Part shown: positions 1 to 10,312 of the stretch, piece by piece
Layout: every line of letters begins with the position of its first letter
How positions within the stretch are numbered: the stretch's first letter is position 1
NCBI RefSeq assembly: GCF_030698125.1
Contig: NZ_JAUYNV010000006.1
Span: 186,001-250,000 of the forward strand
Direction: 5' to 3'
Length of the DNA: 64,000 nt
DNA from: Methyloversatilis sp.
GTDB taxonomy: Bacteria > Pseudomonadota > Gammaproteobacteria > Burkholderiales > Rhodocyclaceae
Notes under the pieces: generated by a model
Databases searched by the model: none
Told to the model about the DNA's origin: nothing
The model's input: the letters and a program-made list of their open reading frames with translations, nothing else
Translations under genes and position numbers: made by a program

Positions 1-262
1 CGCCCGGCGCGCCGGCGCCGATTACGTGGCGTTCGGCGCGATGTTTGCGTCGGCGACCAAACCCGCCGCGCCGGTCGCCGACCGCGCGCGCTTCGCCGAG
101 GTGGCCGATCTGGGCATTGCCCGCTGCGCCATCGGCGGCATCACGCTGGATCGGGCACCGTTGCTGATCGAAGCCGGAGCCGACCTGCTCGCCGTGGTGT
201 CCGACCTGTTCGACGCCCCCGATATTTCCGCGCGGGCACGTGCCTACGCGCAGCTTTTCTGA
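1..262 (+). CDS. thiE: Thiamine-phosphate synthase, C-terminal part (cut by window start)
   Basis: The frame is open from base 2 to the TGA at 260-262, so only the last 86 or so residues are present and the start lies outside the window. The fragment begins with [16 protein letters not shown], the loop of ThiE that closes over the pyrophosphate (family form GADYxxxGPxFxTxTK), followed by AIGGIT, the glycine-rich phosphate-binding turn at the end of the TIM barrel. ThiE joins hydroxymethylpyrimidine diphosphate to the thiazole phosphate to make thiamine phosphate in the cytoplasm. hemL follows after 10 bases, so the two are probably co-transcribed, an order common in betaproteobacteria. Confidence 0.88.
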
Positions 263-272
263 AGGAATCGCC

Positions 273-1556
273 ATGACCACCCGCAACGAGCAGCTTTTCG
301 AACGCGCCCAGCTCAGTATTCCGGGCGGCGTCAATTCACCGGTCCGGGCCTTCCGCTCGGTCGGCGGCACGCCGCGCTTCTTCACGCGCGGCGTGGGCAG
401 CCGGCTGTGGGACGCCGATGGCGTCGAGTACATCGACTATGTGGGGTCGTGGGGTCCGGCCATCCTTGGCCACGCACACCCCGAGGTGATCCGGGCCGTG
501 CAGGAAGCGGCGGTGGGCGGCCTGTCGTTCGGCGCTCCCACCGAAGCCGAAATCATCATGGCCGAAACGCTGTGCGCCCGCGTACCGTCGATCGAACAGG
601 TGCGCCTGGTCAGTTCCGGCACCGAGGCGACGATGAGCGCCATCCGTCTGGCACGCGGTTTCACCGGCCGCGACACCATCGTGAAGTTCGAAGGCTGCTA
701 CCACGGCCACGCCGACAGCCTGCTGGTCAAGGCCGGCTCCGGTGCGCTCACCTTCGGCAATCCGAGTTCGGGCGGTGTGCCGGCCGACTTCGCCAAGCAC
801 ACGCTGGTGCTCGACTACAACGATCCGCAGCAGCTGGAAGACTGCTTCCGCAACCACGGCGAGCGCATTGCCTGCGTCATCGTCGAGCCGGTGGTCGGCA
901 ACATGAACCTCATCGTGCCGACGCGCGCCTTCCTCGATGCGATGCGCGCGCTCTGTACACAGTATGGTGCGGTGCTGATTTTCGACGAGGTGATGACCGG
1001 TTTCCGCGTCGGCCCGGTCGGCGCCCAGGGCCTGTTCGGCATCACGCCCGACCTGACCACGCTGGGCAAGGTGATCGGCGGCGGCATGCCGGTCGGTGCC
1101 TTCGGCGGCCGGCGCGACATCATGGCCGCCATTGCGCCGATCGGTGCCGTGTATCAGGCGGGTACGCTGTCCGGCAACCCGGTCGCTGTGGCGGCGGGTC
1201 TGAAGACGCTTGAACTGATCGACGTACCCGGCTTTCATGACCGGCTCGCCACCCGCACGAAGCAATTCACCGACGGCATGGTCGCCGCCGCCCGCGAGGC
1301 AGGCGTGCCGTTTTCGGCGCAGTCGGTCGGCGGCATGTTCGGCCTGTATTTCCGCGACGCGGCGCCGGCCAGTTACGCCGAAGTGATGCAGTCTGACCGC
1401 GAACGCTTCAACCGCCACTTCCACGCCATGCTCGATGCCGGCGTCTATCTCGCGCCGTCGGCGTTCGAAGCCGGTTTCGTGTCGGGTGCGCACAGCGAGG
1501 ACGACGTGGCGCAGACGCTGGCGCGGGCGAAGGCTGCATTTGCCGCGGTTGCCTGA
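273..1556 (+). CDS. hemL: Glutamate-1-semialdehyde 2,1-aminomutase
   Basis: A 427-residue PLP enzyme that converts glutamate-1-semialdehyde to 5-aminolevulinate, the C5 route to haem and cobalamin. Visible marks are the N-terminal [13 protein letters not shown] segment, the [20 protein letters not shown] phosphate loop, GCYHGHADS, the [10 protein letters not shown] cofactor aspartate motif and [18 protein letters not shown] with the Schiff-base lysine near residue 266. Length matches the family. I chose the ATG at 273 because it is preceded by GAAGGA and begins [12 protein letters not shown]; an in-frame ATG at 240 would overlap thiE and adds residues unlike the family. Confidence 0.97.
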
Positions 1557-1602
1557 CGCTGTGCGAGAGGTTAGCCGCATAGCGCAAGGAAAAGCGGGCA
1601 GT

Positions 1603-1617
1603 TTCCCTGTCCCTTGA
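1603..1617 (+). repeat. Left copy of a direct repeat flanking the accessory island
   Basis: TTCCCTGTCCCTTGA here recurs as TTCCCTTGTCCCTTGA at 4723-4738, with one extra T. The two copies bracket the A/T-richer block that holds the ATPase pair, the hsdS relic and the toxin-antitoxin genes. They could be the footprint of an insertion, but they may also be a simple dispersed motif. The rest of 1557-1809 shows no gene. Confidence 0.35.
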
Positions 1618-1809
1618 GGTTATTCGTTGCTCATGTATTCATGGGGCGACAGTGCGCAGAACTGATCGACCTTTCGGTTGCCTGCAGTGTGTCAGGTCCC
1701 GGCTGATGGAGAACTGCCTGCTGAAACGGATTTGGATGTGAGTGCGGTGAGCGCACTCGGAAATTGGAGTCGAAACCCAAAGAACCAGCCCAGCACCGGG
1801 CTCTGCACA

Positions 1810-2307
1810 TCAAGCTGGCGACTTGAACAAAAACGGTTTCACGTTCTGGATCAGTCGATCTACCTCAGCTTGATTGTGTTGCAGCATCTCGTGCCCCCAC
1901 AAGCCCACCTCGCCTCGAGCGCAGGACTTAGCGAGTTGTTCGCCCACATTTTCCAGCGATGTGCCACATTCTTGGCGCAGAGGTTCCGGCTCATCACGCG
2001 TATCCAGTAGATAGACCCGCTCACGCACATCGGATGGGACAACTTGCAGGAAGCTCTGCCGTCTATTGATCTCTTGACCATCAAAGTCGATTAACAACAC
2101 CAGATGTCGTTCGGGATACTCGCGCAGCTTTTGCGCGTGTGAGTCTTCAAATTCCGAGCGTACCTTGACCCAGCCACCTGCAACAGGCAACACTTGAATA
2201 GCTCGCTCTTGCAGAGAAGGGTCCAATAAGAATCCGTTGACGATCTCGCGGTTGGCGTCATCTTCAGGCAAGACAATTACATGAGGTCTGTACACGTTGA
2301 CGCTCAC
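1810..2307 (-). CDS. Small TOPRIM-like protein, partner of the upstream AAA ATPase
   Basis: 165 residues, not matched with certainty to a named family. The GTG start at 2307 overlaps the TGA of the ATPase gene (GTGA), so the two are translationally coupled. A hydrophobic strand leads into VLPEDDANREIV (E15, D16, D17, N19) and a second into LVLLIDFDGQ (D74, D76). One acidic strand end followed by a DxD is the layout of TOPRIM metal sites as in OLD nucleases, RloB and AriB of PARIS. The fold call is inference from these motifs. Codon use and base content are more A/T-rich than hemL or the argS operon. A role as nuclease or effector of an antiphage pair is possible but untested. Confidence 0.55.
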   Translation of the reverse strand: MSVNVYRPHVIVLPEDDANREIVNGFLLDPSLQERAIQVLPVAGGWVKVRSEFEDSHAQKLREYPERHLVLLIDFDGQEINRRQSFLQVVPSDVRERVYLLDTRDEPEPLRQECGTSLENVGEQLAKSCARGEVGLWGHEMLQHNQAEVDRLIQNVKPFLFKSPA

Positions 2308-3419
2308 GGCTCCAGCTCTCCGCAAATCAGGGACTGAATCACGTCGGTGCGGACTTCGAAGTCCGTCAGCGACCGGATGACTGTGGGCTCCAAATGGCTC
2401 TTGCGGCCTAATACCCAAGTGTTGTCATTTGAAAAGCGCCGGACGGCTTCCTCGTTGTGCGAGGTCATCCAGAGTTGCCCGCCGCCCTCTTGGAAGCCTC
2501 GACGCAAGGCCATGACGAAATGGCTGACTTCGCTGATCGACAAGTAGTTGTCTGGTTCATCCCAAAATGCGAACAGCGGACCATAGCTCTGGTTGGCTGC
2601 CAGCACCACTCCACACAAGAAGAAGCACTTCTCGCCGTCTGATAGGGCTTCGAAGCCCAACTCATGCAGGGCGTTGCCGGCCCTGAAGCGCACCAATAAC
2701 GCTTTGGCTTCCTTGCCGGCACGTTCAAAACGGAAATCAGACAGGTCAGGCATGACCTGCTGGAGGTACTGACTTAGAGGGGCGTAAGCAGCAGGGTATT
2801 GGGCCAGTAGGCCTGAAAGCCAGTCGGCTAAATTGCTGGCGTCTTCGGTCGGCTCCAGCGTTTCGCCCGCGGTTTCTCCTCGCATCAACCGTGGCATTGG
2901 GGCCAACAACACCATGCGAGCCAGCCATTCGCGGAAGGTGCCCAGCGCGTTGGCGGTTGAGGGATCCTGGATAACCGGCAATGCCACCAAGTGCCAGTCC
3001 ATATTGAAGCGTGCTTCAGGCTGACTGGCGTTTTGGCGCCTCAGGGTTACCAGAGCCAACTCTCTTGAGTAAACCGGTTCGCCGTCCACTACCAACTCTT
3101 CTTCCACAACGCGCAGTTCTCTGAAGCGGTCGGGGAGATCCAGCGCCAACCTGAACTTGAAGGCGCGACCGCCGAGAACACCTTCTAGTTCAAAGCGCAT
3201 CGGAACATCGGAGCGGCCGAGCGTGAAGTCACTCGGCTTCAGCAACTGACCCACGCGATTACCGCCTCTGCCGATAGATTGGAGAACCTTTAGGGCCTGG
3301 GCCAGCGTGGACTTGCCGCTACCGTTCTTGCCGATCAACAGTGCTGAAGGTGCATCACCGGGTTTGAACTCGAAGTTCTCGAGGCAGCGAAAGTTATGGA
3401 TATAAACACGTTGGAGCAT
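2304..3419 (-). CDS. AAA family (AAA_21, SMC/OLD-like) ATPase
   Basis: 371 residues with an ABC/SMC-type ATPase layout in one chain: N-terminal strand with MLQRVYIHNFRCLENFEF, Walker A GKNGSGKST (30-38), a long middle insert, signature-like ALSDGEKCFF (about 258-267), Walker B LFAFWDEPD (282-290, D287/E288) and the H-loop MTSHNEE (H321). Starts of this form are typical of OLD, RloA, PtuA and AriA ATPases found in defence islands. It lies directly downstream of an HsdS relic and overlaps the small TOPRIM-like gene, so the pair may once have travelled with a type I restriction locus. There is no fused nuclease domain, unlike Gabija GajA or class 1 OLD. Specific system unassigned. Confidence 0.82.
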   Translation of the reverse strand: MLQRVYIHNFRCLENFEFKPGDAPSALLIGKNGSGKSTLAQALKVLQSIGRGGNRVGQLLKPSDFTLGRSDVPMRFELEGVLGGRAFKFRLALDLPDRFRELRVVEEELVVDGEPVYSRELALVTLRRQNASQPEARFNMDWHLVALPVIQDPSTANALGTFREWLARMVLLAPMPRLMRGETAGETLEPTEDASNLADWLSGLLAQYPAAYAPLSQYLQQVMPDLSDFRFERAGKEAKALLVRFRAGNALHELGFEALSDGEKCFFLCGVVLAANQSYGPLFAFWDEPDNYLSISEVSHFVMALRRGFQEGGGQLWMTSHNEEAVRRFSNDNTWVLGRKSHLEPTVIRSLTDFEVRTDVIQSLICGELEP

Positions 3420-3481
3420 ATTCGTTCCATTCAGTTGTCCGAGGTCTGCATAGCCTCTGCGATGACCAATCCGAGCCGTCG

Positions 3482-3600
3482 GTTAGTAGTTTATGCATCA
3501 AGCCCTGCTTGAGGGCGTGGGTTTTGTCGCGACGCACTTCGAGGGCATCTAGCCGCCGAGTTACAACGCCGACTAAACCGGACATCACGCCACAAACGTC
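3482..3600 (-). pseudogene. Relic of the C-terminus of a type I restriction specificity subunit (HsdS)
   Basis: On the minus strand this stretch reads VTRRLDALEVRRDKTHAL then KQGLMHKLLT. That is very close to the coiled-coil end of HsdS proteins (usual form IDxEIxALExRRDKTRALKQGMMQELLTG). Upstream (3601-3827) I find no continuation of an HsdS target-recognition domain, and downstream the normal GRxRL ending is replaced by DGSDWSS, so only about 35 residues of homology survive. The open frame around it (3394-3633) is short and overlaps the ATPase start, so I treat it as debris, not a gene. It indicates that a type I restriction locus stood here before. Confidence 0.6.
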
Positions 3601-3827
3601 TGTCCAGAGAAAGTTGTCGTTACTGTCGGGCAATCAGCGTCAGGGCGATTTTCTACAGACCTTGGTTGCTTTTCGATCCGTCCGCCGGTCACTGCCTGTG
3701 CATATGCAATACAACTCGCGTGCGCAAGTATCAGATAGAGCGGCCAGGGCGTACGACGTGCGTCTGGAAATGATCCGCAGTGCAAAGCCACCCGCTCCAA
3801 TCGCTTTCGGCGCGAGCCACCCGCCTG

Positions 3828-4118
3828 TCAGAAACCCGTTTCCTTCTGATGACGCACGGCGAGTAGCGTGACGACGTCCATGCCGATGTGATAGCGCACC
3901 ACATACCCGCTGTCACCGAAGTCGACCATCCACTCGCGGAATTCATCGGGAAGATCATCGACGGGACGGCCGATGGCAGGTTGCAGCGCCAGCACCTTCA
4001 CCTCTTCGCGTATGGTCTTGATCGCACGTCTGGCCGCATCGGGGCTCGCGCTGGCGAGAAAACGGTAGAGGCGCTGCACATCCGACAGAGCCGGCTGCGA
4101 CCAGATCAGACGTGGCAT
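3828..4118 (-). CDS. ParE/RelE-type toxin
   Basis: 96 residues. MPRLIWSQPALSDVQRLYRFLA followed by SPDAARRAIKTIREEVKVLALQPAIGRPVDDL and a C-terminal strand GYVVRYHIGMDVVTLLAVRHQKE is the standard outline of the ParE/RelE superfamily: two helices, then an antiparallel sheet ending in an RHxxE/K strand. ParE members inhibit gyrase and RelE members cut ribosome-bound mRNA; the sequence alone does not tell me which. The ATG lies inside the upstream antitoxin gene (13-base overlap), the usual coupled antitoxin-toxin order. Confidence 0.85.
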   Translation of the reverse strand: MPRLIWSQPALSDVQRLYRFLASASPDAARRAIKTIREEVKVLALQPAIGRPVDDLPDEFREWMVDFGDSGYVVRYHIGMDVVTLLAVRHQKETGF

Positions 4119-4396
4119 TCAGGCGGCTCGGCGTCGTTGCCCTGTTCGAGTCGAGCCAGCCAGGCATCCGCCTCTTCACCCGTGAGATGCAGGCCAGTGG
4201 TGCGGTAAGCCTCCCACGCTTTCAAGGTGTCCTGGCGGAAAGTTTCACGCTTTTCTTCGCGCTCGACGTACTGCGTTATGGCTTCGCGCATCAGCCAGTG
4301 GGGGGTGCGCTGGCGCGCGTCCGCCAAGCGTTTCACACGCATCCGGATGTCTTCGTCGATCTTGATTGCTACGGGACGTGTGGTCGAAGCAGGCAT
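4106..4396 (-). CDS. Ribbon-helix-helix (CopG/ParD-like) antitoxin
   Basis: 96 residues. The N-terminus RPVAIKIDEDIRMRVKRLADARQRTPHWLMREAITQYVEREE is a ribbon-helix-helix DNA-binding domain (strand at about 7-13, then two helices), of the COG3905 kind that pairs with ParE/RelE toxins. The C-terminal part with LKAWEAYRTTGLHLTGEEADAWLARL would be the toxin-wrapping segment. I start at the ATG 4396; the longer open frame to 4483 adds a low-complexity Arg-rich piece with no domain. A palindrome and a -10-like TATAGT lie directly upstream and fit autoregulation. Confidence 0.85.
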   Translation of the reverse strand: MPASTTRPVAIKIDEDIRMRVKRLADARQRTPHWLMREAITQYVEREEKRETFRQDTLKAWEAYRTTGLHLTGEEADAWLARLEQGNDAEPPECHV

Positions 4397-4409
4397 GATG
4401 GTCCTGACC

Positions 4410-4436
4410 GGTATCGCGTGGTAATACCTGACTATA
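4410..4436 (-). promoter_or_regulatory. Probable promoter/operator of the toxin-antitoxin pair
   Basis: Reading toward the antitoxin, TATAGT (4436-4431) can serve as a -10 box. Between it and the ATG lies an inverted repeat GGTAT-N9-ATACC (4410-4428). A ribbon-helix-helix antitoxin bound there would block its own promoter. No convincing -35 box is seen. Confidence 0.4.
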
Positions 4437-4560
4437 CATGATGCGCCACGCCTACCTGCCCTGGCCGTTGCGCACCTGTCCAATGAACGATGCCGACGTT
4501 GAAAAGAGTGCTCCGGCGGGCGATGCCCTCGACAAAGGGACTACGAATTACCAATTAAAG

Positions 4561-4582
4561 CACTGAGTGAATTTACTCAGTG
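4561..4582 (-). terminator. Perfect 8-bp inverted repeat, possible terminator
   Basis: CACTGAGT-GAATTT-ACTCAGTG forms a perfect stem with a six-base loop. On the minus strand it is followed by GCTTTAATT, a weak T-rich stretch, and it lies about 180 bases after the stop of the SDR gene. It may end the argS operon transcript or be a protein-binding palindrome. Nothing else was recognised in 4440-4720. Confidence 0.35.
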
Positions 4583-4722
4583 GGGCAAGTCACCGCTTCC
4601 GGTCTCGACAACCGGTGGTCATCGAAGGCCTGGCGTCTTTTTCACGTTGTCCGGAGTCAGGATGTGGACGGTGATCGCACGCGCCGTTCCCCTCCGCGCG
4701 ACAGGCGCGGGTCGCGGCGCCG

Positions 4723-4738
4723 TTCCCTTGTCCCTTGA
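4723..4738 (+). repeat. Right copy of the direct repeat flanking the accessory island
   Basis: TTCCCTTGTCCCTTGA matches 1603-1617 except for one extra T. It stands just before the conserved argS operon begins (from its 3' end), so it marks the right border of the A/T-richer block. Confidence 0.35.
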
Positions 4739-4759
4739 ATCTTGTAACTTGCATCTGCC

Positions 4760-5560
4760 CTACAACGTGCCGCGCGGTTTGCGGCCGGCCTTCGCGAACG
4801 CGAAGTCGAATACGGTGTCCGGCAGCAGGCGCAGCAGCCTGGCCACCACCCCCATCTGCCAGGGCACGACTGCGCAGGACGTGCCGCGTGCGATGACGCG
4901 GGCGAAGCGCGGGGCGGCTTCGTCGGCGCTGAGCAGGAAGGGCATCGGGTAGGGGTTGATGGCAGTCATCGGCGTGTCGATGTAGCCGGGGCAGATCGTC
5001 TGTACCTTCACGCCGCTGCCGCGCAGTTCCACGCGCAGGCTTTCCAGATAGGTGATGGCCGCCGATTTCGACGCGCAGTAGGCACCGGCACCCGGCAGGC
5101 CGCGGATGCCGGCAACCGAGGCGATGCCGACCAGCGCACCGCTGCGCCGCGCCTGCATCGGTTTCACGAAGGGTGCGAAGGTGCGCACCAGCCCCAGCAC
5201 GTTGATGTCGAATATGGCTTCGAACGCCGGCAGGTCTTCCAGCTCGCCGGTCAGCGTGCCGACCGACACGCCGGCGTTGCCGATGACGATGTCCGGCACA
5301 CCGGCCTGCTGCATGAAGGATCCGGCGGCGGCCTGCAGTGCGGCCGCGTCGCGCACGTCGGCGGCAAAGGTGAAATGTCGCCCCGGCAGGCTGGCAGCCA
5401 GCGCATCAAGCTGCGCCGCTCGCCGCGCAACGAGGCCGAGCGTGGCGCCTTCCGCGGCGTAATGGCGGGCCAGTGCTTCGCCGATGCCGCTCGATGCACC
5501 GGTCAGAAAGACGACGGGTGCCGCGCGGGCACCCGTTTTTGCCGGACGCGCTGCGTCCAT
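4760..5560 (-). CDS. SDR family NAD(P)-dependent oxidoreductase
   Basis: 266 residues, classical short-chain dehydrogenase. It has the cofactor motif FLTGASSGIGEALA (TGxxxGxG, near 19-25), DVRD for the adenine pocket, IGNAGVS (NNAG-like), a SVAG strand with the catalytic serine, and the YCASK tyrosine-lysine pair, followed by CPGYIDTPM. The substrate cannot be read from sequence. It starts five bases after dsbA and is the last gene of the argS-SPOR-dsbA-SDR unit, an order repeated in many betaproteobacteria, so it is probably read from the argS promoter. The longer open frame upstream runs through dsbA in a different frame and is not real. Confidence 0.88.
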   Translation of the reverse strand: MDAARPAKTGARAAPVVFLTGASSGIGEALARHYAAEGATLGLVARRAAQLDALAASLPGRHFTFAADVRDAAALQAAAGSFMQQAGVPDIVIGNAGVSVGTLTGELEDLPAFEAIFDINVLGLVRTFAPFVKPMQARRSGALVGIASVAGIRGLPGAGAYCASKSAAITYLESLRVELRGSGVKVQTICPGYIDTPMTAINPYPMPFLLSADEAAPRFARVIARGTSCAVVPWQMGVVARLLRLLPDTVFDFAFAKAGRKPRGTL

Positions 5561-5565
5561 GCGGC

Positions 5566-6204
5566 TTACTTCCTGGCGGCCGCTGCGCGCTCGCCGCGGG
5601 CGCGTTCGATCAGCTGGTCGACAATGGCGAGCATGCCTTCGTAGCTGTTGCCGAGCGCGATGTATTTGCCATCGACCACCAGTGCCGGCACGCCGGTCAG
5701 CTGATAGGCGGCACTCATCTGCTGCGCACGCTGCACCTTGCCTGACACCGCGAACGACTTGGCGGTGTCTTCGAACTTCTTCGCATCGATGCCGTTCTTG
5801 CCCATCCAGCTGCTGATGGTCGCCATGTCGTTGAACGCCTGGCGCTCCATGTGGATGGCGTCGAACACCTTGCTGTGCATGCGGTCGAGCTCGCCCAGGG
5901 TTTCCAGGGTGTAGTAGGTCTGCGCACCGGCCACCCAGGACTGGCGGAAGATGGCCGGTACCCGCTTGAAGGTCACGTCGTCCGCCTTGCGGTCGAGCCA
6001 CTTCTTCAGTGACGGCTCGAGCTCGAAACAGTGCGGGCAGCCGTACCAGAAGAACTCGATCACCTCGACCTTGGGGCCCGGTTCGACCGACTGCGCCGGC
6101 TTGATTTCGCGAAAGTCCTTTTCGTTCAGCGGGGCGGCAGCGACGCCACCGGCCATGAAGCCGGCAAAAGCCAGCGCGGCAATCTGCTTGAATCCGAATT
6201 TCAT
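5566..6204 (-). CDS. dsbA: Thiol:disulfide interchange protein DsbA
   Basis: 212 residues. The signal peptide MKFGFKQIAALAFAGFMAGGVAAA is followed by a thioredoxin fold with the active site EFFWYGCPHCFELEP (C56-P-H-C59, the CPHC of DsbA) and a helical insert. The cis-proline loop is TGVPALVVDGKY. DsbA donates disulfide bonds to newly exported periplasmic proteins and is reoxidised by DsbB, which is not in this window. I use the ATG at 6204 because it opens the signal peptide; the longer frame adds 26 residues that run back into the SPOR gene. Part of the argS operon. Confidence 0.93.
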   Translation of the reverse strand: MKFGFKQIAALAFAGFMAGGVAAAPLNEKDFREIKPAQSVEPGPKVEVIEFFWYGCPHCFELEPSLKKWLDRKADDVTFKRVPAIFRQSWVAGAQTYYTLETLGELDRMHSKVFDAIHMERQAFNDMATISSWMGKNGIDAKKFEDTAKSFAVSGKVQRAQQMSAAYQLTGVPALVVDGKYIALGNSYEGMLAIVDQLIERARGERAAAARK

Positions 6205-6235
6205 GCTGTCTCCTGTGTATGCATGGCAAGTCCGG

Positions 6236-6835
6236 TCATCGGACAAGCGAAGTGTCGATCCCGTTCTGCGCCAGGTCTGCACGGACCCGGCTCATGTCGT
6301 CCGGGCTGGCGAACGGGCCGAGCCGTACGCGGTACAGCGTGCCCTTGCCGGCGACCGCATGGGACTGAATGTTCGACTCCAGACCCATCAACGCAAGACG
6401 GGCGCGCAGGTTGTCCGCTTCTTCTTCCGACGAAAAGGCGCCGGCCTGCAAAACCAGCGATTCAGGCGCAGCGGCCGGCGCCGGCGCGGCCGTGGGCGCG
6501 CTGGTTTCTTCCGGCTGAGTCGGTGCGGCAGCGGGCGGTGTCCGGGTGGGGGCCGGCTGCGCACTCTGGCTGCCCGGCAGGATTTCATAGAAATCGAAGC
6601 GCGGCCTGGCGGGGGGCTTGTCACCCGGCTTGCCGGGCAGTGCGACCGGTTCGCTACCGGACGCAGCGGCTGTCGGCGCGGCTTCACGCAACTGCAGCGG
6701 CAGCGCCGAGCCGTTGATGTACCACATCACGCCGGCGCACAGCACCACCCCCAGTACCAGGCCGACGAAGATGCCGACGACCGTGCCGCCGCGATGCTTG
6801 CGCGCGGGCGCCTTCTTTTGCGCTGCTTTGGCCAT
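6236..6835 (-). CDS. SPOR-domain cell-envelope protein
   Basis: 199 residues in three parts: a short basic cytoplasmic tail (KKAPARKHRGG), one membrane segment (TVVGIFVGLVLGVVLCAGVMWYI, about 19-41), a long Pro/Ala-rich periplasmic linker, and a C-terminal SPOR domain (LVLQAGAFSSEEEADNLRARLALMG to the end, about 125-199). SPOR domains bind glycan strands stripped of stem peptides at the division septum, so this is a FtsN/DedD-like protein. The ATG at 6835 shares its A with the argS stop (TGATG). A GTG one codon earlier is the alternative. Confidence 0.85.
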   Translation of the reverse strand: MAKAAQKKAPARKHRGGTVVGIFVGLVLGVVLCAGVMWYINGSALPLQLREAAPTAAASGSEPVALPGKPGDKPPARPRFDFYEILPGSQSAQPAPTRTPPAAAPTQPEETSAPTAAPAPAAAPESLVLQAGAFSSEEEADNLRARLALMGLESNIQSHAVAGKGTLYRVRLGPFASPDDMSRVRADLAQNGIDTSLVR

Positions 6836-8577
6836 CACATCGATTCCGGTGCGGACACGCCGAGCAGCGCCAGCCCGTTGGCGATGACCTGCCGGGTCGC
6901 GGCGGCCAGCGCCAGACGGGCTTCGCGTACCGCCAGATCGTCGACAAGCATGCGCGAAGCGTTGTAGAAGGCGTGGAAATCGGACGCCACGTCGCGCAGG
7001 TAAAAGGCGACCGAGTGCGGCGCACGGTCAGCAACCGCCTGGGTGATCACGTCCGGAAACTCGGCCAGACGCTGGGCCAGCAGCAGTTCGCGCTCGCCGG
7101 TCAGCGCATCGAACGGGATGCCGGGCAGCAGCGACAGGTCGAGCGCGTGATTGGCAACCGCCTCGCGCAGCACCGAGCAGATGCGGGCGTGCGCATACTG
7201 GATGTAATAGACCGGATTGTCGTTCGACTCGGATTTGGCGAGATCAAGGTCGAAATCGAGGTGCTGGTCGCTCTTGCGCAGCACGTAGAAGAAACGCGCC
7301 GCATCGTTGCCGACTTCGGCACGCAGGTCGCGCAGCGTGACGAAGTCGCCCGAGCGCTTGCCCATGGCGGCCTTTTCACCGCCGCGGTACAAAACGGCGA
7401 ACTGCACCAGCGCGATTTCGAGCTTGTCGGGGTTTTCGCCCAGCGCGGCCAGCGCGCCCTTCACGCGCGGGATATAGCCGTGGTGGTCGGCACCCCACAC
7501 ATCGATGACCAGGTCGAAGCCGCGCGCGAACTTCTCCGCGTGATAGGCGATGTCGGACGCGAAATAGGTATAGGCGCCATTTTCTCGACGGACGACGCGG
7601 TCCTTCTCGTCGCCGAAGCGGGTCGACCGAAACCACAGCGCACCATCCTGTTCGTACAGGTAGCCGCCGTCCTGCAGGCGCTTCACGGCGCGATCCACCG
7701 CGCCGTTGCTGTGCAGCGACTGTTCCGGATACCACACGTCGTAATGCACGCGGAATTCGCCCAGATCATTGCGCTGGTCGGCCAGCATGGCATCGAGCGC
7801 GTAGCGGTGCACCGTCCACCAGTCTTCGCCGAGTGTGGTCCTGGCGTGGGCGATCAATGCGTCGAGCATGGCGTCGGCGGTATCGCCGGCGACCGAGGCG
7901 TCGGGCAGCTCGGCCGTGTGCCGGTTCAGGCGAGTGCCCTGCTGGATGAACAGCTCCGCCCCGATGTCGCGCACATAGTCGCCGCGATAGCCGTCGGCTG
8001 GGAACTTCACTGCCGCGCCCTGCGTTTCCATGTAGCGCAGCCACACCGACACCGCGAGGATGTCCAGCTGGCGACCGGCGTCATTGACGTAGAACTCGCG
8101 CGTCACCGCATAGCCGGCGGCGTCGAGCAGGTTGCACAGCGCCGAGCCGTAGGCGGCACCGCGACCATGGCCGACATGCAGCGGCCCGGTCGGGTTGGCC
8201 GACACGAATTCGACCTGCACCTTTTTGCCGGCGCCGGTGTCCGAGCGGCCGTAGCGTTCGCCTTCGTTCAGGATGCGGCCGACGATGGCCTGCTTGACCG
8301 ATGCGCTGAAGAAGAAATTGATGAAACCGGCGCCTGCCACTTCGGCGCGCTCGACCATGCCCGATGGCGGCAATTCGCGCACGATGCGTTCGGCGATGAC
8401 GCGCGGATTCTGTTTCAGCGCCTTGGCCAGCTGCAGCGCGACGTTGCAGGCGAGATCGCCGTGCGAAGCCTGCTTCGGGCGATCAAGAAGAATGTCGGGC
8501 GGCGCGATGTCGGGCGCCACGCTGGCCAGTGCGGCATGCAGCAGACGGGTCAGTTCTCGGCGCAGTTCGGGGGTCAT
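6835..8577 (-). CDS. argS: Arginyl-tRNA synthetase
   Basis: 580 residues, class Ia synthetase that charges tRNA-Arg. The N-terminal Add-1 domain (about 1-100) recognises the tRNA D-loop. The HIGH motif appears as PLHVGHGRG (HVGH 134-137), and the KMSK position reads MGKRSGDFVTL, a variant without the canonical lysine that is common in ArgS. The C-terminal anticodon-binding helices end in ANGLALLGVSAPESM. I start at the ATG 8577 (MTPELRRELTRLL). First gene of the unit that continues with SPOR, dsbA and SDR; ubiB diverges on the other side. Confidence 0.97.
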   Translation of the reverse strand: MTPELRRELTRLLHAALASVAPDIAPPDILLDRPKQASHGDLACNVALQLAKALKQNPRVIAERIVRELPPSGMVERAEVAGAGFINFFFSASVKQAIVGRILNEGERYGRSDTGAGKKVQVEFVSANPTGPLHVGHGRGAAYGSALCNLLDAAGYAVTREFYVNDAGRQLDILAVSVWLRYMETQGAAVKFPADGYRGDYVRDIGAELFIQQGTRLNRHTAELPDASVAGDTADAMLDALIAHARTTLGEDWWTVHRYALDAMLADQRNDLGEFRVHYDVWYPEQSLHSNGAVDRAVKRLQDGGYLYEQDGALWFRSTRFGDEKDRVVRRENGAYTYFASDIAYHAEKFARGFDLVIDVWGADHHGYIPRVKGALAALGENPDKLEIALVQFAVLYRGGEKAAMGKRSGDFVTLRDLRAEVGNDAARFFYVLRKSDQHLDFDLDLAKSESNDNPVYYIQYAHARICSVLREAVANHALDLSLLPGIPFDALTGERELLLAQRLAEFPDVITQAVADRAPHSVAFYLRDVASDFHAFYNASRMLVDDLAVREARLALAAATRQVIANGLALLGVSAPESM

Positions 8578-8788
8578 GGATGAAACGGAAGCGCGATGCG
8601 CAAGTGCATTTGGAGACCGCGAAGTATAGCGCGAGCCCGCATTCAGCCCGGAAAGCCGCTTCCGGCGTGACGGTGCTTCTTGTACAGTGCGCGCTCCGCA
8701 CGCCGCTGTCGAGTCCCCGCAACATGAGGTTTCAACCCCCCAGATCGTCTGTTCCTGCCCCGCAACGTGCGGCCGAGGGCTGAGCCGC

Positions 8789-10312
8789 ATGCGCTGGCTG
8801 CGACTGCTCAAGATCCTCACGGTGAGCCTGCGGTTCGGGCTGGACCAGATGCTGCTCGACGCCGGCAGCAAGCTTCGCTTTGCCGGTCTGCTGCGCGTTA
8901 CCCGGATGGGGCGGCGCTTCAGCGACCCGCGCGCCGTCAGGCTGCGCGAGGCGCTGGAGGCGCTGGGCCCGATTTTCGTCAAGTTCGGCCAGATGCTGTC
9001 TACGCGGCGCGATCTGCTGCCGCCGGACATTGCCGACGAACTGGCCAAGCTGCAGGACCGCGTGCCGCCGTTCCCGTCGGAACAGGCGATCGCCCGCCTC
9101 GAAGCCTTCTACGGCAAGCCGCTCGATCAGGTGTTCCGCAGCTTCGAAAGCCGGCCGGTGGCGTCCGCATCGGTGGCGCAGGTGCATTTCGCGGTGCTGC
9201 CGAATGGCGAGGACGTGGCGGTCAAGGTGCTGCGCCCCGGCATCGAACACATCATCGCGAACGACATCCTGCTGATGGAAACCGCAGCCGGCCTGCTGGA
9301 ACGGGTGTGGTCGGAAGGGCGCCGTCTGAAGGCGCGCGAGGTGGTGGCCGAATTTTCCAAGCATCTGGGCGACGAACTTGACCTGATGCGCGAGGCGTCG
9401 AACTGTTCTCAGCTGCGCCGCAACTTCCGCGATTCGCCGCTGCTCGCCGTACCCGAGGTGTACTGGGACTTCTGCGGTCCGACCGCGATGGTGATGGAGC
9501 GCATGGTCGGCTTGCCGATTTCGCATACCGATGCACTGCGCGCCCAGGGGGTCGACATGGCGGCGCTGTCGCGCGCCGGCGTCGAAATCTTCTTCACCCA
9601 GGTGTTCCGCGACGGCTTCTTCCACGCCGACATGCACCCGGGCAACATTTTCGTCGCGCCCGACGGCCAGTACATTGCGCTCGACTTCGGCATCATGGGT
9701 ACGCTAACCGACGTGGACAAGAATTACCTGGCGCAGAACTTCCTCGCCTTCTTCCAGCGCGACTACAAGCGGGTGGCGCAGGCGCACGTCGATGCCGGCT
9801 GGGTGCCGCGGGGCACCCGGGTGGATGAGTTCGAGGCGTCGATCCGTGCCGTGTGCGAACCGATCTTCGACAAGCCGCTGAAGGAAATCGAGTTCGGCCG
9901 CACCCTGCTGCGGCTGTTCCAGGTGTCGCGCCGGTTCAACGTCGAAATCCAGCCGCAGCTGGTGCTGCTGCAGAAAACCCTGCTCAACATTGAAGGCCTG
10001 GGTCGTCAGCTCGACCCGGAACTCGACTTGTGGAAAACCGCCAAGCCCTTTCTGGAACGCTGGATGAGCGAACAGGTCGGCTGGCGCGCGCTGCGCCGCA
10101 AGCTGCTCGACGAGGCGCCGGCCTGGGCGATGATGATGCCGGAGCTGCCGCGGCTGGCGCACAAGGTACTGAGCCAGTCTGCCGCGCAGGACGTGCGGCA
10201 GGACGCGGTCGATCTCGAATATCGCAGCCGCCGGCAGCTGCGCTGGATACAGTTCCTGTGCCTGCTGGTCGCACTGCTGATCGGCTTCGAGGTGTGGCAC
10301 GCCTACGCCTGA
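8789..10312 (+). CDS. ubiB: Ubiquinone biosynthesis protein kinase UbiB (ABC1/COQ8 family)
   Basis: 507 residues, an atypical protein-kinase-like ATPase needed for ubiquinone synthesis. The family KxGQ motif is seen as [18 protein letters not shown] (65-68), then the Ala-rich nucleotide loop ASVAQVH (127-133), the lysine in VAVKVLRPG (K146), [11 protein letters not shown] and the DFG-like [10 protein letters not shown]-terminal hydrophobic stretch ([21 protein letters not shown]) anchors it to the membrane. I start at the ATG 8789 ([10 protein letters not shown]); the open frame back to 8687 is unlike the family. It is not next to ubiE/ubiJ here. Confidence 0.95.

Follow-up and report, generated by a model that had tools for sequence, protein, structure and literature searches.

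A window of 64,000 nucleotides of the Methyloversatilis sp. contig NZ_JAUYNV010000006.1 (assembly GCF_030698125.1, positions 186,001–250,000 of the forward strand) contains two overlapping genes that probably form a mobile two-gene abortive-defence module composed of a sensor ATPase and a TOPRIM nuclease (Table 1). The computed basis of this reading comprises the conserved pairing of the genes, the TOPRIM-like profile of the smaller protein, its acidic residues at the strand ends of a structural model and the motifs of the ATPase, together with a patchy distribution over distant hosts and the lack of the pair in close relatives, some of which have an empty site. From these data we infer horizontal spread of the pair, complex formation, nuclease activity, a target, a trigger and phage defence.

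Table 1. Location of the gene pair and associated features in the window
Feature	Position	Strand	Basis
OLD/SMC-type ABC ATPase gene, 371 aa	2304..3419	-	AAA_21/AAA_15 over cut-off, PADLOC matches, invariant motifs
Partner gene, 165 aa, GTG start; minimal stand-alone TOPRIM-like protein, putative metal-dependent nuclease effector	1810..2307	-	Profile comparison and model
GTGA stop/start overlap of ATPase and partner genes	2304..2307	-	4-nt overlap in 6/6 junctions measured
E15 codon, putative TOPRIM glutamate after strand 1	2263..2265	-	Invariance and model strand 10–14
D74-F75-D76, putative TOPRIM DxD at the end of strand 3	2080..2088	-	Invariance and model strand 68–74
79-aa frame with type I specificity subunit C-terminal tail	3394..3633	-	HsdS-like part ~3481–3552; PADLOC
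ParE-type toxin, same insert as the pair	3828..4118	-	PF05016, 1.5e-17 (Pfam)
Ribbon-helix-helix (RHH) protein, presumed antitoxin to ParE	4106..4483	-	PF01402, 7.2e-7 (Pfam)
Lower-GC insert holding the pair, HsdS tail and ParE/RHH genes	1559..4713	.	GC profile and congener joins

A preliminary description of this DNA had proposed an ATPase and a small partner overlapping by GTGA, and both genes and the 4-nt overlap are present. An alternative partner start at TTG 2418, which would give 202 aa, was rejected, since the relatives match the GTG start at 2307. Rfam analysis of positions 1–9000 of the window and a tRNA scan revealed nothing informative.

The larger protein had been described as SMC/OLD-like, in agreement with its Pfam matches to AAA_21 (57.9 bits) and AAA_15 (43.5 bits), each of which exceeds its cut-off. 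Among PADLOC models, AbiLi was the best match (6.8e-24), followed by mad3 (6e-18), HEC-01A (3.3e-16) and AriA (1.3e-15). Alignment of five homologues revealed the invariant residues G30, N32, G33, G35, K36, S37, S260, G262, E263, D287, E288 and H321. Besides H321, they mark what we take to be the P-loop GKNGSGKS (K36), a signature-like motif LSDGEK (259–264) and the Walker B motif FWDEP (D287/E288).

Six other ATPases of the same clade are 52–60% identical to that of the window over 368–371 aa, while the nearest of the other ATPases compared by BLAST belong to HEC-01A (22% over 380 columns, E = 2.5e-10). We constructed a maximum-likelihood tree of 41 ATPases, which included 10 of the 13 HEC loci L013–L025, both L011 and L012, 8 of 11 from PDC-M38, 7 of 12 from RloB loci, 7 of 12 from DUF4435 loci and seven of the eight ATPases of the window's clade (the broken one of L004 was left out). 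Each of the six partner-type groups made up one side of a branch; thus, in this sample the ATPase lineage tracks the partner type. Ultrafast bootstrap support was 100 for five groups and 93/89 for DUF4435, with 100/100 for the window's clade. The deep branches are weak (76/80), the program issues a warning about long branches meeting, and the nearest relative of the clade is not fixed by the tree. Judged from their sequences, the window-type ATPases are a lineage of their own within this sample.

The smaller protein could not be assigned to any family of Pfam, PADLOC or NCBIfam, its lone NCBIfam match being at chance level (E = 0.12), and none of the five intact partners had a meaningful Pfam match. 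In particular, PF14491 (DUF4435) did not match the window partner or the four other intact members at E values up to 10, no match to PF13707 (RloB) was found in the partner family by Pfam, and sequence searches of the PDB with the partner yielded chance-level matches only. The four other intact partners are 37–61% identical to that of the window. Weak N-terminal matches to PADLOC models were revealed in two other members, HEC-01B (E = 0.007) and PDC-M38B (E = 0.028), each in one of five, and these families were therefore collected for comparison. An ATPase-like ORF directly precedes the partner gene in the 26 HEC-01B/PDC-M38B loci read, and its N-terminal strand is visible in 24. Of two HEC-01B proteins scanned with Pfam, one exceeded the DUF4276 cut-off and the other stayed below it (E = 0.012), while all three PDC-M38B proteins scanned were DUF3226.

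In profile–profile comparison, the best match to the five intact partners was DUF4435 (E = 2.6e-4, score 32.7, reached by none of 100 column shuffles), the second DUF3226 (E = 0.0058, score 24.1, again 0/100) and the third the mixed HEC-01B set (E = 0.016, score 21.7, with 2 of 200 shuffles as high and a highest shuffle of 24.9). These scores are in the range of known relatives, since known TOPRIM families compared with each other (six comparisons) scored 20–35; six ATPase decoys scored 12–18 and five reversed profiles 10–15.5. The DUF4276-type subset and RloB did not rise above their shuffles (62/200 and 40/100 as high, respectively). Hence the matches expected for the partner in the preliminary description (TOPRIM, DUF4435 or RloB) were borne out for DUF4435 by profile but not for RloB. 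The DUF4435 profile was made from the top-scoring 4 of 12 loci, one of which, L052, came from a longer 556-aa frame; the others included 14 of 15 HEC-01B proteins (L023 dropped), 12 in the DUF4276-type subset, 11 of 11 PDC-M38B and 12 of 12 RloB proteins. When DUF4435 sequences were left out one at a time, E ranged from 7.5e-5 to 0.019, and the aligned part started after E15 in two of the four runs. E15 is aligned with the TOPRIM glutamate, and D74-F-D76 with the DxD, in all three matching profiles (DUF4435, DUF3226 and HEC-01B); GG44-45 also aligns with a conserved GG in the DUF4435 comparison.

The TOPRIM motif consists of a glutamate after strand 1 and a DxD at the end of strand 3. In the AlphaFold model of the partner (pLDDT 77.8, pTM 0.75) strand 10–14 ends just before E15 and strand 68–74 is closed by D74-F-D76, which is the arrangement of this motif. 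E15 and D74, both singled out in the preliminary description, are invariant together with GG44-45 and D76 in all five intact sequences aligned, and E15 is also retained in the broken L005 and shortened L006 copies. Structural alignment of the model ranked OLD nucleases (TOPRIM domains) first and second, and AriB structures were absent among the best 50 matches listed. The fold match alone is only suggestive of TOPRIM. Taken together, the profile comparison, the model and the invariant residues (E15, GG44-45, D74-F-D76) speak for a TOPRIM domain, as the preliminary description had supposed. It is very improbable that the partner is a non-nuclease Rossmann-like regulator resembling receiver domains or lumazine synthases, with an ATPase acting in DNA repair or plasmid maintenance: proteins of these two folds differ from the OLD nucleases by less than 1 Z unit and so tie with them, but the partner's profile matches those of TOPRIM families with its acidic motifs in register, and the genes are arranged as in ATPase + TOPRIM operons.

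To find relatives, one genome per species was scanned for 84,980 species by a pattern-based search, which detects close relatives only. It revealed five partner loci; with one from a plasmid collection and the window there are seven. The ATPase gene is immediately upstream of the partner in all seven, although interrupted in L004, and the junction is a 4-nt overlap in all six measured. Chance overlap of ORFs was rejected as the origin of the pair, because this gene order recurs in seven loci. The relatives come from records named Giesbergeria, Contendobacter, Competibacteraceae, an uncultured proteobacterium, a Synechococcus bin and a Kovacikia minuta plasmid; the first three belong to beta- and gammaproteobacteria and the last two to cyanobacteria. 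Thus, the pair is hosted by both proteobacteria and cyanobacteria. An eighth, intact ATPase of the clade (L010, 6001–7110) is located on a Dolichospermum plasmid typed as conjugative; a VapC-family gene adjoins it, and no recognisable partner was found beside it.

Decay of the pair is frequent: L004 (pair at 4963–6486) has an interrupted ATPase gene and an intact partner, the L005 partner has an internal stop and the L006 partner is cut short. The L004 pair sits directly between what we take to be hisG-like and hisD-like genes. The partner family is rare. Beyond the window's own genome, it was absent from 12 genomes of the genus, 299 further genomes of the order and 397 of the phylum (overlapping samples). 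Searches of phage records and viral contigs with the ATPase or the partner gave nothing informative.

We next compared the pair with known systems of similar plan. PARIS consists of the ABC ATPase AriA and AriB, a DUF4435 TOPRIM tRNase, and responds to anti-restriction proteins such as Ocr. Like the window pair it has two genes and an ATPase over the AAA_21/AAA_15 cut-offs, and DUF4435 is the family closest in profile to the window partner, with the E, GG and DxD in matching register. According to the rule of Rousset et al. (2022), a PARIS ATPase exceeds a score cut-off of 32 for AAA_15 or 27 for AAA_21 (PMC9122126, in part), and the window ATPase scores above both. For the partner, the rule applied was an adjacent DUF4435 protein over 27 bits. 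No DUF4435 match was obtained by Pfam for the window partner, whose similarity to this family is seen in profile–profile comparison only, and, as the preliminary description noted, it is considerably shorter (165 aa against 282–335 aa in seven DUF4435 proteins beside a separate ATPase-like ORF). Since its ATPase belongs to its own clade and its partner lacks the DUF4435 match, the pair is not PARIS proper.

The candidate systems HEC-01 (AAA ATPase and DUF4276-type partner) and PDC-M38 (AAA ATPase and DUF3226) of PADLOC share with the window pair the operon plan of an ATPase followed by a partner, which is small in HEC-01; PMC12988326, relevant to their names, contains the phrase "Hma-embedded candidate". 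HEC-01 has the closest ATPases outside the clade by BLAST, whereas its partner is of 182–212 aa and its DUF4276-type subset resembles the window partner no more than shuffles do. The PDC-M38 partner has a profile in register with that of the window, but it is longer (a model of 220 positions), belongs to a named Pfam family in three of three proteins scanned and is accompanied by an ATPase of a separate clade. Neither the HEC-01B nor the PDC-M38B (DUF3226) model of PADLOC matched the window partner. The AbiL/RloA–RloB systems (ATPase + RloB) are related through the best PADLOC match of the ATPase, AbiLi, while the partner profile is not RloB-like above shuffles and has no PF13707 match. The PADLOC search proposed in the preliminary description thus succeeded for the ATPase but found no model for the partner. 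OLD nucleases and GajA of Gabija contain the same two domains, and the TOPRIM domains of OLD nucleases are the first two structural matches, but in the window the two domains are separate proteins; no helicase gene was recognised beside the pair on reading the ORFs by eye.

On the result of the partner searches, PARIS, HEC-01, PDC-M38 and RloAB proper were all rejected for the window pair, consistent with the initial view that it matches no named system. The best explanation, by analogy, is that the pair may work like PARIS, AbiL/RloAB, AAA:DUF4276 and AAA:DUF3226 pairs but is a member of none. Small stand-alone TOPRIM proteins are already known, and common, as neighbours of ATPases (DUF4276, DUF3226 and RloB pairs); therefore only the clade and the small size of the partner are new. 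No description of this clade was found in Pfam, PADLOC or NCBIfam, or in literature searches that covered article listings and selected passages. It should be mentioned that the same genome carries outside the window a second ATPase + small partner pair (C13, 33824–35688; L063, 825–2689), whose partner is DUF4276 and HEC-01-like; its frames overlap by 40 nt as listed and by 4 nt if the internal ATG of the partner is used.

The window pair lies in a 3.2-kb block between hemL, which ends at 1556, and the next core gene, which starts from ~4714. The GC content of the block is about 0.54–0.62 against 0.61–0.70 on either side (500-base windows). In 4 of the 11 congener loci fetched (L065, L066, L067 and L070) hemL is followed by the next core gene after 42–61 bases. 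These empty sites join window position ~1558 to 4714–4736, at 93–95% in three loci and at 84–87% in the fourth; therefore, the window most likely holds an insertion. In congener L072 this site contains DNA that matches the ParE/RHH genes but lacks the pair, so the pair and the ParE/RHH genes may have arrived separately. At this site L076 and L077 encode a 1386-aa protein with a P-loop-like stretch (by eye) and a 416-aa protein; in L076 the latter is AAA_14/DUF4143 by Pfam and the former has no Pfam family, while the L077 copy of the 416-aa protein was assigned by likeness. Further congener loci (within L065–L083) contain other genes after hemL. Thus, the site is variable in the genus and may be a hotspot for accessory genes.

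A relic of HsdS had been proposed upstream of the pair. It is real but very short: the PADLOC type I specificity model matches residues 28–51 of the 79-aa frame with its C-terminal end (E = 1.4e-4), and the frame has no Pfam match. In L002 the pair is located between a fragment of the specificity subunit (HsdS) and a type I HsdR. Together with the window tail, this arrangement fits the suggestion that the pair once sat in a type I locus. Type I genes, or the tail of one, thus adjoin the pair in two of the eight ATPase loci. A link to type I restriction operons has been reported for RloB as well (PMC10440598, in part). If the pair worked with HsdRMS in the manner of RloA/RloB and were inert alone, the window copy would be a relic of a lost locus. 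Besides the two loci just described, this would agree with the location of the genome's type I specificity frame: the only one found by PF01420 is on another contig. We regard such an accessory role as improbable, because in the other six ATPase loci no type I genes were recognised by eye in the stretches read (ORF lists and one annotation table), and both window frames are intact and keep the conserved acidic and P-loop residues.

In PARIS, a hexamer of the ABC ATPase sequesters the TOPRIM tRNase and frees it once phage anti-restriction proteins bind (PMC12409363, in part). In a 2026 survey, OLD-ABC ATPases linked to TOPRIM are treated as a backup effector that is widespread beside BREX and related systems (PMC12839542, in part). 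By analogy, a defence role is likely for the window pair. The OLD-type ABC ATPase would probably assemble into an oligomer that keeps the small TOPRIM protein inactive and would sense a cue of the invader; upon this trigger the TOPRIM protein would be released or activated and cut an essential nucleic acid, either host tRNA, as in PARIS, or DNA, so that growth stops.

Alternatively, the pair could be an AAA:TOPRIM toxin–antitoxin system, in which the partner is toxic alone, the ATPase is a dedicated antitoxin and maintenance rather than defence is selected. Toxicity neutralisation assays have validated two AAA(D29):TOPRIM_OLD pairs (PMC10440598, in part), and both the overlap of the genes and the adjoining ParE/RHH pair would suit this reading, which nevertheless seems unlikely to us. 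A free toxin should be harmful in L004, where an intact partner accompanies the interrupted ATPase; it should be mentioned that this locus comes from a bin and an assembly error is possible. In PARIS, deletion of ariA was non-toxic (PMC9122126, in part). The state of L004 suggests that the window-type partner, too, may do no harm when its ATPase is lost, in accordance with the defence module preferred here.

More tentatively, and with considerable doubt, the pair might guard type I restriction in the manner of a minimal PARIS: its TOPRIM effector, reduced to about 160 residues, would be held by an ATPase of a clade of its own, be carried with HsdS/HsdR, and kill or arrest the cell once the restriction enzyme has been disabled by a phage protein. 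If so, the effector would be unusually small for its kind, and the guard strategy would have had a separate origin here. Because HsdS/HsdR accompany the pair, the idea of a restriction guard can be tested in a system other than PARIS.

Bacterial immunity makes repeated use of ATPase + TOPRIM pairs, but their detection rests on named partner families. Because its partner is small and divergent, the clade described here escapes the models of Pfam, PADLOC and NCBIfam, and therefore such modules may be undercounted. The 165-aa partner makes the pair an attractive minimal system for studying how an OLD-type ATPase may restrain and release a TOPRIM nuclease.
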